DNA from: Takashimella koratensis
Taxonomy: Eukaryota > Basidiomycota > Tremellomycetes > Trichosporonales > Tetragoniomycetaceae
NCBI GenBank assembly: GCA_003116875.1
Contig: BCKT01000002.1
Span: 620,001 to 684,000 of the forward strand
DNA length: 64,000 bases
Direction: 5' to 3'
Shown here piece by piece: positions 14,025 to 41,300 of this stretch. The notes under the pieces are model-generated. The model was not told the DNA's origin and ran no database searches. It was given only the letters and a program-made list of their open reading frames with translations. The first letter of the stretch is position 1, and every line of letters starts with the position of its first letter. Position numbers and translations under genes: made by a program.

Positions 14025-15482
14025 CTAAACGTCTAACTCGAGTCCCCAGTCGGATCCCTTCCACTCTTCCAACGACCTAAGGACCTGCTTGGATCCGTAG
14101 TCCTCTGTTGGGTCGAGGGCCCGCAATTCGGCGTCGGGAACCCAGATCACTAAGGTTGTTAGATACAGGGAAAGGTATAGAGATAGGGACAGAGACAGAG
14201 AGGGACAAGGACACGAATTAATGAACATTTACTCACCGTTCATACCTGCGGCAACACCAGCTTGGACTCCTGGTCGGGCGTCCTCAAACACGAGGCCCTT
14301 GGCGCGCTCGAGTCGTTGCGCTTCAGTACACTCAAATGCGGTTCCGACGTCGCGACCTGTGCTCGTTAGTTGTCATTATCGAAGTGGATACAGCATACAG
14401 CGTAGACCGGGTGGTACACAGTACTTGCGGCAAGACGTACCAAGCTTCTGAGCTGCCGCGAGGAAGATATCCGGGTTAGGCTTGCCTCGACCCGGTTGGA
14501 CCTCGGGTGAGTCGGCAGTGAGGATACAGTCAACTGGGAAGAGAGACATCATTTCGGTCAAGTGCGCCTGTGACAGTCAGCGATCCTACCGAGATAAAGA
14601 CACCATGGTCTCAGCTAAGGGAGGGGAGGGGAGAGATGGTCGACCTGGACTCACGGTTTTGATCTCGTAGTTGCGCCGACTGGAGCCCGTGGCTACGGCA
14701 ATAGGCACTCCGGCTTTGTGCTACTCTCGTCAGCTCTTTCTAGTAGACAGCAAGAGAAGATGAGAAAAGAAATAGAATGGAGAAACGAAGGGTGGGACTC
14801 ACCAATGACTTGATCAAAGCTACAGCTCCAGGCATCGGTGGAGCTGTAGCAAATTGCTCATCTTGCATCCTGTTTCGCTCAACGAGAAAGTCGTCGATAG
14901 GCAGTTTATCTTCAAGTCCAGGACAGTGAGAGTAGAGGTATTCTGTTGCCTGACGCTGGGCTAATACGGGTATCAGTATAGGAGTTCCGATAGCTGTATG
15001 ATCAAGATAGCCATTGGCAAAAGTCAAAGTTCATAAAAAAATACTCACGTTTACCCATGAGACCCGATTTGATCTCCCACGTCATCTCGTACCCGTACCG
15101 TCCGAGGATCGTATCTAGATCAAAGTCAGCCAAAGCCATCTTTCCAACCTTAACGATGACGGTGTGGAGCTTTGCATTTAGCTCGCACCATCGAGACAGA
15201 GCTGAAGGCGGTGGCTTACTCGTCACGACGCTCATGATCTTCTACAAAGGGGTCAACCAAATTCCGACTGAATCTGAAAAGGTCTGGCGTACCTCGGTAT
15301 CGCTATATTGCGCTTAGGGTCAGTATTGTGCCCAGAGCAGCCTTCAAACGACGCGTGTGGGAAGGACGTACACTGCAGGACTAGAGTTAGCTGAGGAGTG
15401 GGGCGAGAGAGACTTGAAGGGTCAACGTACCTAAGAGACCATCGAGGTCGAAGATGGCGTACTCTGCGTTGCCCTTGGACAT
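14025..15482 (-). CDS. HAD-superfamily phosphatase (pseudouridine-5'-phosphatase / HDHD1 type)
   Basis: Ten exons (15482-15431, 15372, 15302-15293, 15241-15220, 15114-15049, 14960-14803, 14720-14655, 14567-14441, 14356-14237, 14149-14025) give 747 nt, 248 residues. All four HAD motifs are present: I, DLDGLLVDTE (nucleophile and acid Asp); II, AVATGSSRRN; III, GKPNPDIF; IV, LVFEDARPGV. The cap begins YGYEMTWEIKSGLMGK, as in HDHD1/GS1-like enzymes that dephosphorylate small phosphometabolites. Motif I is assembled from three exons of 52, 1 and 10 nt: the lone T at 15372 sits between two ordinary introns. It makes the Val codon GTC and keeps the DxDGxxxDTE pattern. The substrate cannot be inferred. 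The gene is divergent from the Vps3844 gene at 15810. Confidence 0.88.
15372..15372 (-). other. Inferred one-nucleotide exon of the HAD phosphatase gene
   Basis: On the minus strand the sequence reads CTGCAG, T, GTACGT. The upstream intron 15430-15373 is 58 nt (GTACGT donor, CTAAC branch, CAG). The downstream intron 15371-15303 is 69 nt (GTACGT donor, CTGAC branch, TAG). Only inclusion of this single T gives Leu-Val-Asp-Thr-Glu in HAD motif I and keeps the 248-codon frame. Confidence 0.65.

Positions 15483-15713: not shown

Positions 15714-15775
<62 letters not shown>
15714..15775 (+). repeat. Poly-C tract, 62 consecutive C
   Basis: Sixty-two uninterrupted C residues end 35 bp before the Vps3844 start codon, within the 327-bp interval between two divergent genes. 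The tract can form i-motif or G-quadruplex structures. Its exact length may be an assembly approximation. If transcribed it would sit in the 5' leader of the plus-strand gene. Confidence 0.9.
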
Positions 15776-18633: not shown

Positions 18634-20891
18634 ATGCGGCGGCGGCGTACTTCCACATCAGCCAGCGATACCTCGGCTATCTCTTCCTCTTTACTCAACC
18701 CCACCTCGACCTTATCCTCATCTCCTACATCTCTCTCTTCCTCCCTCCTCACCTCCTTTCCTACCTCCCTCCCGTCAATACACAACCTTGTCACCCGAGT
18801 CCACGCAATCCTCTACCTCGTCTTGGTCTGGACCGGACTCGACGGAATGGCGATCGCATGGCTCGGCGTCGGCGCGCGCCGTATCGACCCAGGGTCGGAG
18901 ATGAAGGAAATGACCACGGGAACAGGGAAAGAAGGTGCAGGGAAAGTGAAGCGGAGAAGAGCTGGAGCAGGTGGACAAGTAGGGAATGGACATACCCCGA
19001 GAGAAGGGTTTTATCCCGGTATGGTCAATCTAAGTGGGACGTTGTGTTACATGAACTCGGTTCTACAGGTGAGCACGGATGTCCTCGCTGACCCTCAATG
19101 ATCCAATCTATCAAGAGGGCTCATATCGCTAACGACTATAAACCCAGTCGTTTGCATCTATTCCGTCCCTTGTGATCCACCTCGAACGTATCATCGCATT
19201 AGCTATCGAGTCTGACCTCCCTACACCCGTCACCGACGCCCTCCTCGACGTTCTCCGAGGTGAGCCTTTTGCTCTCCTCTCAGTCTTACACACGTTTACA
19301 CCTACTAATCCTTTCCCAGATCTCAACACTCCACACGCACGGCATCCGCCTGCCTTGCGCCCTACTCCACTCCTCCACGCCCTCTCTACTCTACCTCAAG
19401 TCCGCCGCCTCCTCGGCACGCGAGACCAACAAGACGCCCATGAGCTCTTCGTCGTCCTCGCCGAAGCTGTATCCGACGAAGCCGTCAAAGTCGCTGCAGA
19501 GTACGCGCGTTCCCGGGGTCTCGGTGACATTTCGACTTTGCAAGGGTATATCAGCGGTACAGTAAACAGAGCAGACCAGGAGGGACCAAAGCAGAGGCAG
19601 AGAGCGAGAGGGGTAGCTCAGCCCTGGGAAGGGTTGTTGGCGAGGAGGAGAGTATGTAAGCGATGTGGTTGGTCAGAGGCGATTAGGATGGATACCCTCG
19701 GCGGGATGGAGCTGCCCTTGCCTGTTAACGTGAGTGTCTGGGTTTAGACAAACTGTCACCTCATCACGGCTGAACATAGCTGAGAAGATGGCAATGCTGA
19801 CAATTCAATAGGGAGACGTCGCGCTCGAATCGTGTATAGCAGAGTATCTTGCGCCGGAGAACTTGTCAGACGTTACATGCGAGATGTGCTCACTTCGGCA
19901 AACGATAACACATTACGGCGCCGAGGCGGATCGGCTACTAGGTGTAGTCTCGACTGGTTCAAGTTCCGATGCGACCTCCTCTGGGTCCGGCGCATTCGCT
20001 GCTCTCGAAGACGCCGACCTCGTCACTGCTGCTACTTCGACTTCTCCCGTGACTTCGAGTCGGAAAAAGCGTGCCGCGGTCGCACGTAAAGTCGAAGCTC
20101 GGCTTCGGTCGATGCTGGAAAGCAACACGGTTTCCAATTTCGGCGAAGCGGTCTTACCACCTACTCACGGATCAGCAGGGACTGCTGCTCTCCCTATCAA
20201 ATGGCAAACTGTACGATCCGATTCGTTTCGAGAAGCTGCCGTGTCACGCCCTCCAACAATGTTGCGCCTCCACCTCGTCCGGTCCGAGTTCACACCATGG
20301 GGGAATATCGTGAAGAAAACGGCCAGAGTAGCGTTCCCGATGGTTCTTGACCTGACGAGGTTTACGACAAAGGGCGTGTGGGAGGACAGAGCGAGTATAC
20401 AGGAATTATTGGCAAAGAATCGGTTAGCAGGTGGGAGTGGGAGTGGGAGTGGGAATGGGGAAGGAGAGGGAAGTGGGAGAAGAGCAGTGTATCGACTCGA
20501 AAGTGCAATCATGCACCTCGGGTACACGCATTCGTCGGGCCACTATATCTGTTTCCGACGGATACCGAGTGAAGCGGGCAAGAGGAACGGCGAGGGCGAC
20601 GAGAGTGAGGGAGGTGAGGGAAGTGGAGATCGACGACCTATCGCAGCGACCAAATCTTGCCCAGACGGATGTGTTTGCCAATCTTGCATTTACTTTGGTC
20701 AAGTCCGACCTGACCCACCTGCTATCCCGGGTAAAGGATGGTTACAGATCAGCGACGCGGACGTGGAAGAAGTTGGTGAGGAAGTACTCTTATCTGCTCG
20801 AGGATCGGTGTTTATGCTCTTCTATGAGCTGGTAGGGGAGTATAGACCGAGACCACAGGAAGTGCAGGTACAAAGTAGTGTCGCAGAGTAG
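18634..20891 (+). CDS. Membrane-anchored ubiquitin-specific protease (Ubp1/USP30-like)
   Basis: Four exons (18634-19068, 19148-19259, 19320-19729, 19812-20891) give 678 residues. The Ser/Thr-rich N-terminus precedes one membrane segment (ILYLVLVWTGLDGMAIAWLG). The Cys box reads GMVNLSGTLCYMNSVLQSF. Then come the Gln-Asp box (GTRDQQDAHELFVVL), a zinc-ribbon pair (CKRCGW and CEMCSL), the His box (GYTHSSGHYICFRR) and the closing Asp segment (GWLQISDADVEEV). USPs remove ubiquitin; a single N-terminal anchor is shared by yeast Ubp1 and mitochondrial USP30. The usual Gly-Asn-Thr-Cys around the nucleophile is replaced by Ser-Gly-Thr-Leu-Cys, one residue longer. Upstream codons in frame lack an ATG, so the start at 18634 is the first available. 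Confidence 0.88.
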
Positions 20892-34741: not shown

Positions 34742-35424
34742 TGGCCATGACGTGCGGCTGAGGGCTGTTCCTCGCTTTCTCTGTTGATATTGACGACTTT
34801 CTCGATTGTGATTTTAATGACTGTACACGATGCGTCTTTGCATGCTGTCGTTCCGCTTCTCGCTTCTCGCCCTCCGTTTCACTTTGTTTCTTCTTCCCTC
34901 GCTCCCTCTCCCGGTTCACATGTTCTGTATCTTGTGCGCTTACCTCCTCTGCCATCGGCCCTTCCCGCCTTGCTTTGGTGGTCCATTCTGTTTCTACTTC
35001 CTTTGCAGCTTCCTTCGCCTTTTCCTTGCCCCTCCTTGTCCAGCTTTCAGCCTAGGTCGTTAACGATGCATAGACACGTGGGAGAGAAAGAGAGATTTCG
35101 AACTGAAAGCCGGAAAGAACCGAATGATAGATTGAATCCAGGGATCAAAAGAAAACGAGCAAATACTGAAGACGAGTCAGGCCGCCTGAAGAAGAGGTAG
35201 CAAGGACAGCCAGAGATGAGGTCGTACGTAGGGCTAGTAAACCAGTGGGAAAGTCGAGATTTTCTATGGGTAGGAGGAATCGTAAGACGACTATGTGAGG
35301 AGAAAAGTATACTAGAATATCTTCTGACGCGGGGGGGGGGGGGGGGGGGGGGGGGGGTTCAGCAGGGGACGTGCTATTCTTGCATGTTCGCTGCCGGTTC
35401 GTCATCACCCCTTGAGTCAGCCGA
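34742..35424. other. Convergent 3' interval between the G-alpha gene and RAS1
   Basis: About 680 bp holding both 3' UTRs. A T/C-rich stretch at 34850-35040 is probably the G-alpha trailer. The right part contains the poly-G tract listed separately. No gene was seen. Confidence 0.5.
35331..35357. repeat. Poly-G tract, 27 consecutive G
   Basis: Twenty-seven G residues lie 68 bp beyond the RAS1 stop codon, so a RAS1 3' UTR would contain a C27 tract. It is the third long G/C homopolymer in the window, with those at 2863 and 15714. Confidence 0.92.
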
Positions 35425-38363: not shown

Positions 38364-41300
38364 TCACTCTCTGTCCATCCACGACATCTTATCACTCCAA
38401 CCCCATTCTGCATCCCAGAAACCCGCACCAACCAGTCCACCCGCAGCCTGCCACTTGCACCGAGCCGACACGACCGCCCAGTCCGGTACCTGTGTCGCAC
38501 CCATCGTCGGGGGACATTGGTCAATGTCAGCTCTGTTGAAGCGACATCTTTAATGGTACACATAACTCACGGGGACCCCAGTGCGGATCGGGAAGAGACG
38601 CGCGGCGAGCTCTAACCCCTCCGCGTCGTTACCCGCGATCAACATGGCGAGGGATTTGCGGTCTGTCGGGTGTGGATGGAGCGTGATGATCCCTGCAGAA
38701 CGTCAATACTGCTGCACGGCGTGGGCGACCTGCCGATGCTCGCAGCTTCACCACTCACCCGTTCCCTTCTCATAAACCACCGCCCCATTTACAGTGAACA
38801 ACCCTTTTGTCGGAAACCCCAGTGGCACCTTCGTCTTCGCTACCAACCAGCCTGCGAACCTATTCTCCTCCGGTCTTCCAAAGACCACCACATTACTCCC
38901 ACCCATTCCGCCATCAGCGACCGCACGCAGGGCCTCGGACTCGTCCAGAATGACGGCGTCCGTCCGGTGATATGTATACAGATCGTGAGCGATACGACGG
39001 GCGAGAGAGAGCAGGTGCAGGTTGGTATGTGGGGCCACGAGGTGGAGAGGAGATGAGGTGGAGAGGATACGGATGAGGGGACCGTAGGCGCGTGCAGCGT
39101 GGATCGGGGCAGGCTAAGTGATCAAGACGCACCGCGAATGGTCAAGGAGCATTTGTCAGTCTATGCTCTCGAGTGATCGACCGCTGCAATACCCGCTAGT
39201 GAACTCACTTTAAACCTCCCGTTTACATTGTACAGGCTCTGTACAGGCTCGCCGCTCGTCGTCACCTCTATCCGACGGATATTCATCCCGTGCAGGTCGA
39301 GGCCACCACCATTCCGCCCGTCTCTCCACTGCCGCGCATTGACGTCGAGCCTTGCGAGGCTATGAAGCTACCGTTAGCCCAACCTCTCTGCCCAGGCCAT
39401 GCATCCCAGACTCGAACCATAACTCAGACTCAGACCGGGACTCACCGACCGGGCACGGCAAGTTCTGCGATCCTGATTCCCGCTTTACCCCCACTCTCAT
39501 CCGGGTTCGCAGTAGCCAATGTGAAACCTGCTTTCCTTACTTCATCCACCGACTTCTTCGTCCTAGGCAAAGTCGCAAGCCACTGAGTTACTTGAGGTTC
39601 TCGGAACACTTCGTCCCACCAGTGATCCCTTCCTGCGACTTCGACATAGGTCACATCTGACCCTGTCCAGCCAGCCACACCGACGGTGGATTCTCCATCC
39701 ACACCGACTGCAGAGCCGGATGGCGCATCGTGTGTCCAGTTAGCAATGAGTGCGGTATGGGCCCGACCATGTCGAGGAGGTACGTTCCCGTCCACTGCTC
39801 CGTGAATGGCAAGGACACGCAAATGCGCGAGATTGGAAGCGTACAGGTCGTTGTTGTATGCTGTGAGCGAGGAGCTCAGGATACCCATGAGGGCGGGATC
39901 GGCGAAATGATTCGATATTTGCTCGATGTATGGAACATAGTGTTGGATTTTCAACCACCCAGACGCGGCGATGACTCCCACGATGCGATCCGGATACCTA
40001 GCGGCGAGGTACCAAGCCCCCTGCCCCCCGTTCGAGTGACCAATGACCAAAGTCTCCTCTGACGCCTCTTCCACCTTCCCTGTTTCTGTAACTCTTAACC
40101 GCTCCGCAACCCAGCCTACCGTCTCCCTCGCTGCCCAGGCGTCCGCCATACTCGCGCCATGCCAGTCCTCACCCCACTCTGTCCTTCCGGTAGGTAACAC
40201 CGCCCACCCATTCCCCTCACCCCCACTTCCCCTTGTGCTGGGGAAAGTCGGGATCGCGTCCGCCCAGAAGGGCATGTCGATGTCGACGCCCGCTCCATGT
40301 AGCGCGAGAATCACAGGCGGGAGTAAGTGCCCGTTGTGGTGAGTTGGCAACGAGGAGGAAGGTAAGATAGGAGCAAGGACGACGGCGTGTGAGACGCAAG
40401 CTGGGGGGAGGGATGACCTCTCTGCCTCGGGAGAGAGGGGGGGTGACGCAAATGTGACTCGGAACGAGCACCGCCCACTTCTTCCTTCGTCAGAGACAAG
40501 TGTCTTGTTCTCGATACGTCGGGTGAGGATCGCGACTTCACTTCGGCCGCCTATAATGAGGAGCATTTTGATTTGAACGTGGTCTATTCGGACGACGGGG
40601 AGGGTCTGCCTAATCCGTACTGGGACAGACCTCGTTTGTCCCGCGGAGATTTTTGTTCGCCTCCCTTTGACCAACGCGAGACCAGGAGCTAGTTCCGCTT
40701 CAACCACTTGGACCGTGACGTCGTCAAGGCCCGCGCGGAGAGCGAACGATACCCATTCGCCCATGATCCATCCCTCGACGAGGTGAGGAACCACGTCCAG
40801 CCCTGGGACACCAAAGATCGCTCGCGGCTTGCCAGAACCAGAGAGCTCGTGGTCGACCTGCACATCGACTCGGAGTCGGACGACAGGAGGCCGTCCTATA
40901 CCCGGGTCTCCAAACATCCTGATCTCGTATGCCGCGCGAACTAGGAGGACGTACTCCCCGGGCTCGACATCGATACTTCGAGCAAAGTTGGACACCGATT
41001 TGGATCCTGGGATCGCCTCGCATGCGGATACTCCGCGCTGTCCCGTTCCCGAATCGGCAAAGGCATACACGTCGCCAGTGTACCATTGAAGAGGGACGGA
41101 CTCGATGGTCTCGGGAGGCGAAACAGGGACCAAGGCATACTCGATCCCCTGGACGACGTCGATCCGAAGCCGAGTAGTCGAGTGGCTTGGATTAGGCGAG
41201 ACGCTGAGGGTTGTACGTAGGAGTGATTGAAAGTGGAGTGCTGCCCAACCATGGTCAGACCGAAGCTGGTCCCATCTGTGAATGTTAGCTCATCCCGCTG

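Follow-up and report, generated by a model that had tools for sequence, protein, structure and literature searches.

Exons of a single nucleotide have been reported from plants and from fungi. A 1-nt exon was shown in Arabidopsis APC11 (PMC4674806), and conserved 1-nt microexons that annotations miss were described in APC11 and VPS55 (PMC8831610); as far as the accessible text of these papers goes, the exon is conserved across a large clade, and gene models without it have shorter or different N-termini (PMC4674806, PMC8831610). The accessible part of a 2014 study states, from RNA-seq, that exons of Cryptococcus neoformans var. grubii range down to 1 bp (PMC3990503). In addition, a 1-nt exon with SRA read support has been described in Fusarium CYP621A in 2026, and the authors, in the part of the paper available to us, present it as the first from a fungal gene (PMC12940212).

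Here, we analyzed a 64-kb stretch of the Takashimella koratensis genome (64,000 nt, hereafter the window), in which T15372 is very probably, as judged from the genomic sequence, a real constitutive 1-nt exon of a HAD phosphatase gene. The initial annotation of this locus knew of no fungal case, which the two fungal reports overturn as far as their accessible text goes (PMC3990503, PMC12940212); the exon is thus of a kind already known and is not the first in fungi. What is new is its place in a catalytic motif, its probable age and spread, a second case in the same genome, and its loss from gene models. Going by the available text, C. neoformans is a similar setting in that it belongs to the same fungal class, its genes are dense in short introns (median 56 nt), and it has exons of one base that are hard for automatic annotation, but these 1-bp exons are given there without gene names (PMC3990503). 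The Fusarium exon, as far as described in the accessible text, is likewise fungal, places one base within a length-invariant conserved motif and was missed by gene models; it differs in being the central G of a Gly codon in an ascomycete P450, supported by SRA reads, whereas here a T in a basidiomycete HAD phosphatase is read from genomic sequence (PMC12940212). From what could be seen of the plant papers, the APC11 and VPS55 exons are also constitutive and needed for the frame, whereas they lie in other genes, between longer introns, and have experimental proof (PMC4674806, PMC8831610). Fungal stwintrons, in the accessible descriptions, similarly involve two adjoining introns that are removed in turn, but no base is kept and one intron has a split splice signal, whereas both HAD introns are complete (PMC12403724, PMC5639578, PMC6616335). 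A literature search, with most subscription journals outside its range, turned up no report of a 1-nt exon for this HAD gene or for the DUF2838 gene described below.

Gene anatomy and identity

The initial annotation had placed two complete introns (58 and 69 nt) one base apart at T15372 on the minus strand, and both their coordinates and their sequences were borne out (Table 1): a single base separates the AG of intron 1 from the GT of intron 2. Joining 52 nt, the T and the 10-nt exon confirmed that HAD motif I is rebuilt (DLDGLLVDTE), and the ten-exon model comes, as had been claimed, to exactly 249 codons with the stop included, giving 248 residues. A shorter intron 5 would yield 260 codons and scored 12 bits lower against the homologue HMM. 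When T15372 is skipped, the computed product shifts frame and stops after 23 residues.

Table 1. Features of the HAD phosphatase gene (window coordinates) and of two pattern places elsewhere in the genome (contig coordinates).
Feature	Position	Strand	Description
Exon 1	15482-15431	-	52 nt; start codon to G of motif I Val codon; ends in phase 1
Intron 1	15430-15373	-	58 nt; GTACGT donor, CTAAC branch, CAG acceptor
One-nucleotide exon, T	15372	-	middle base of Val codon (G/T/C)
Intron 2	15371-15303	-	69 nt; GTACGT donor, CTGAC branch, TAG acceptor
Exon 3	15302-15293	-	10 nt; final Val base and Asp-Thr-Glu
Intron 3	15292-15242	-	51 nt
Exon 4	15241-15220	-	22 nt
Exon 5	15114-15049	-	66 nt
Intron 5	15048-14961	-	88 nt
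Exon 6	14960-14803	-	158 nt
Exon 7	14720-14655	-	66 nt
Exon 8	14567-14441	-	127 nt
Exon 9	14356-14237	-	120 nt
Exon 10	14149-14025	-	125 nt; stop codon at its end
L019, apparent 1-nt exon A	C15:394059-394086 (A at 394065)	-	Asp codon G/A/C
L013, apparent 8-nt exon GAAGCAGC	C4:1114794-1114823	-	pattern place

The protein matches PF00702 (Hydrolase, 74.5 bits) and PF13419 (HAD_2, 71.9 bits), and the product of the ten-exon model carries motif I (DxDGxxxD[ST]E), which together place it in the HAD family. Its best PDB relatives are the pseudouridine-5'-phosphatases 9m7l (128.6 bits) and 3l5k (127.6 bits), with the next at 49.3 bits. By these similarities, the gene product is a HAD-superfamily phosphatase, pseudouridine-5'-phosphatase-like as judged by its nearest solved relative. 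The gene also has two more very small exons, of 10 and 22 nt (window 15220-15302). A paralogue in the same genome was sought as a second test and the candidates were rejected, as only remote HADs on contig C11 were found (E 6.9e-5 and 0.034).

Splice alternatives at motif I

All in-frame, stop-free solutions with one or two GT/GC-AG introns of at least 35 nt each, using sites from nt 41 up to Asp-Thr-Glu, were enumerated. The spacing of motif I is kept by 1 of the 38 solutions, that with the 1-nt exon, so that T15372 is needed for both the frame and the conserved motif. Scored with an HMM built from 143 homologues with intact motif I, this form reached 319.6 bits; of its 37 canonical rivals, the seven that were scored gave 300.9-311.8 bits. 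The non-canonical single-intron forms with Ser (316.2 bits) and Gly (315.3 bits) lay just 3-4 bits below the Val form, a point against the 1-nt exon. A further point against it is that the branch-to-acceptor distance is longer in introns 1 and 2 than in the seven other introns of the gene. Intron 1 uses an AG 14 nt past the branch A and skips a TAG at 6 nt, and intron 2 uses an AG at 17 nt and skips an AAG at 7 nt, whereas the others use an AG at 9-12 nt, two of them skipping an AG at 4-6 nt (for the 105-nt intron, the distance was measured from CTGAC and not from the TTGAT 5 nt ahead of the acceptor).

The probability that such an arrangement arises by chance was addressed at three scales. 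Dinucleotide shuffling of the inner stretch, repeated 20,000 times, gave nine sequences containing YAG-N-GTRNG with a branch site and both introns of at least 45 nt, four of them with T as the middle base. Within the window, CTRAY-N6-20-YAG-N-GTRNGT occurs once on both strands, at this very site. Across the 25.1-Mb assembly (24 contigs), CTRAC-N6-18-YAG-N-GTACGT has 9 places vs 13 for the reversed control; the acceptor-N-donor pattern is therefore not enriched genome-wide, which also counts against the 1-nt exon, and the control rate gives an estimate of about 1e-5 per 128-nt intron, counting the GTACGT donor hexamer only.

Motif I in homologues

Two homologue searches returned 567 and 668 matches, the best 120 of each comprising 177 distinct proteins. 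The nine best homologues, with 60-70% identity to the HAD protein, are all from Tremellomycetes, a class to which 29 of the listed proteins were assigned, 26 by organism name and 3 by similarity, with the class checked for eleven species or genera; we take Cryptococcus to be a member. Of the 148 listed homologues not assigned to Tremellomycetes, 143 keep the spacing of motif I, with Ile (128), Leu (13) or Val (2) at the codon in question, the exceptions being P0073, P0110, P0114, P0115 and P0154, of which P0154 could be tremellomycete. Among the listed Tremellomycetes, by comparison, the spacing is kept in 7/29, namely P0001 (Gly), P0002 (Ser), P0005, P0010, P0012, P0121 (Ile) and P0123 (Leu). 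The Fisher value for this difference, 1.5e-17, is descriptive only because the rows are not independent by descent. Gly and Ser with the spacing kept in P0001 and P0002 count against the 1-nt exon. The 22 Tremellomycetes without the spacing divide equally into 11 that have DGLL and then break and 11 that lack DGLL, 8 of the latter starting with MTWE or MTWD.

The broken models can be decoded in part and lend the exon indirect support. In P0004, P0009 and P0013, DGLL is followed by Asn and then [DVE]ILxRYG; exon 5 in the window starts in phase 1 within that Asn codon, and a jump of this kind therefore preserves the frame only from an exon 1 ending in phase 1. LL-Ser-Met in P0006 is what A/GTATG would give. 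On the acceptor side, Ser precedes DSE in P0003, P0011, P0015 and P0020, as would be expected from AG/Y GAY. Thus, a phase-1 donor (P0004, P0006, P0009 and P0013) and a phase-2 acceptor (P0003, P0011, P0015 and P0020) would fit the annotations at this codon, and such a combination, decoded from the relatives' protein annotations, leaves the codon one base short; both halves occur within one genus, Cutaneotrichosporon (P0011 and P0013). LL-Met-Tyr-Val in P0003 and LL-Leu-Tyr-Val in P0008 fit N-T/GTAYGTN with intron 1 removed and the second donor read through, a reading also expected from a plain phase-2 donor. On the other side, P0017 (Val-Ser following LL, Arg ahead of DSE) and the downstream ends of P0006 (Val ahead of DSE) and P0008 (Cys ahead of DTE) resist simple decoding and count against the 1-nt exon.

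In P0017, a gene model from C. neoformans, 21 residues take the place of the motif I Ile, and its close relatives P0010 and P0012 read DGLLIDSE. These two are full-length open frames from an intron-rich gene, which suggests that they were derived from spliced RNA.

A second apparent 1-nt exon

Three of the nine GTACGT-pattern places examined have an upstream donor together with a downstream branch-acceptor pair: the HAD locus, L013 and L019; the other six, which lack the donor, the pair or both, were rejected. L013, in a gene that presumably resembles the complex-I 75-kDa subunit, was also set aside as a 1-nt exon, an 8-nt exon fitting instead (Table 1).

At L019, introns of 60 and 69 nt flank an A and yield KDWHYFLF-D-MCYFVN, and the joined piece scores 135 bits against DUF2838. 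CYFVNILDLL is reached by 14 GT-AG solutions, of which the 1-nt exon is the only one to give HYFLFDMCYFVN; the closest rival, a single 126-nt intron with the donor GTGTCA, adds a Gly (HYFLFGDMCYFVN). Among the 120 listed of 153 matches, 101 contain HYFxx?xC[YF], all 101 with Asp. The upstream exon is overrun in seven ORFs: six run into Gly, as from a phase-1 G/GT (P0294 and P0295 being near-identical there), and P0293 runs into Glu before the ORF ends, which reads as the donor of a single phase-2 intron (GA/GT). The downstream exon is entered by five ORFs with Ser before [ML]CYFVN (phase 2) and by P0284 with Asp, and P0280, P0286 and P0287 start at the Met. In P0267, both ends lie in one ORF, where 33 codons replace the Asp and 97 nt separate G and Y, a multiple of three plus one, matching two introns and one base.

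Both apparent 1-nt exons stand in the same extended context, TCCTGCAG-N-GTACGTC (window 15366-15381 and L019), which is wider than the search pattern and is perhaps a matter of chance. No other copy of the HAD intron pair was found in the genome. A common origin of the introns was rejected: their alignment scores were matched by 232, 105, 46 and 35 of 500 shuffles, and the introns are otherwise unlike.

Alternative explanations

If one longer intron used a weak site, there would be no 1-nt exon. This explanation has two versions, both in frame and both GT-AG: the donor GTTGAC at 15426, a solution absent from the initial annotation, gives a 124-nt intron and DLDGLLGTDTE, and the acceptor CTAAG gives a 118-nt intron and DLDGLLAQYSDTE. 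Yet these add one and three residues, respectively, to a motif whose spacing is kept in 143/148 homologues not assigned to Tremellomycetes, and they score 310.6 and 308.6 bits vs 319.6 for the 1-nt exon, making this explanation very unlikely. The CTAAG acceptor, which the initial annotation had itself put forward as the rival, fared no better on position, lying 7 nt past the branch A, where the other introns of the gene use 9-12 nt, with a score 11 bits lower. Even less probable, in our judgment, is that one base is absent from a true single-intron gene, through an error in sequencing or assembly or in a real allele with a frameshift, and that the second donor arose by coincidence. Roughly 230 nt upstream from the HAD start codon there is a run of 61 C (window 15715-15775, + strand), and the region is therefore not free of difficult sequence; against an error stand the low frequency of a second acceptor-donor pair with a branch in shuffled sequence (9/20,000), the break of the relatives' annotations at the same codon, and the recurrence of the architecture in a second gene of the genome.

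Two further readings deserve still less credence. With GT-TA or TA-AG as its non-canonical ends, one intron would suffice to give DLDGLLGDTE, which keeps the spacing, lies just 4 bits under the Val form and has a parallel in the Gly of Naematelia P0001; we consider this form highly improbable, as it requires non-canonical ends where two canonical introns fit, and the residue at this codon is Ile, Leu or Val in 143/143 intact homologues not assigned to Tremellomycetes. In a [D1,2] stwintron, a type known from fungi according to the accessible text of PMC12403724, intron 1 would split an outer donor G/TGTAC and no base would be retained. Removal of intron 1 does yield TTA/GTGTAC, but the product, with 51 + 10 = 61 nt ahead of exon 4, falls out of frame, and motif I is therefore not restored, which leaves the stwintron with almost no probability. 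The 1-nt exon, as proposed in the initial annotation, is instead supported as the correct reading: it is the sole canonical solution with motif I, the annotation errors of relatives fit it, and a second gene looks alike.

Proposed splicing and implications

We propose that the motif I Val codon would be cut after its first and second bases by two ordinary introns with separate donors, branches and acceptors, and that T15372 would stay behind as a constitutive exon of one nucleotide. In fungi, short introns are recognized as units across the intron, so the spliceosome would not need to measure the exon; as each intron here is complete, ordinary intron definition would be enough, and we infer that the transcript is actually spliced in this way. 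The two reactions would be expected in turn and not together, because both would touch the same base, and the same mRNA would result whichever intron leaves first. The bases at -3 to -1 of the second donor are AGT both before and after the removal of intron 1, so that U1 pairing there would be independent of the order.

The HAD exon is apparently old and clade-wide, an age within Tremellomycetes that we infer from the protein annotations of relatives. It appears somewhat probable, in more general terms, that 1-nt exons are old, recurrent and clade-wide in Tremellomycetes, that the HAD one predates the split of Tremellales and Trichosporonales, that the DUF2838 one is common to several relatives, and that most gene models miss both. 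If so, a single base would serve as an exon in a catalytic motif hardly tolerant of length change, and 1-nt exons could last across a fungal class unseen by gene models. Motif I is lost or garbled in 22/26 organism-named tremellomycete models among the homologues listed, and in these proteomes the phosphatase is therefore listed with its nucleophile motif missing. In addition, a pair of introns one base apart may be an intermediate for apparent one-base intron sliding, because P0293 reads as phase-2 GA/GT at the DUF2838 site and six others as G/GT; such pairs would, if this is true, offer a concrete route to it and a compact test case for two spliceosomes sharing one base.

Other observations in the window

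The 61-C run may be genuine or may have arisen in assembly, and another run, of 27 G, lies at 35331-35357. Two ORFs elsewhere in the window gave Pfam matches: 19863-20888 (+) matches ubiquitin carboxyl-terminal hydrolase (PF00443, 2.9e-15), and 39445-41133 (-) has weak alpha/beta-hydrolase matches (PF00756, 5.4e-06).
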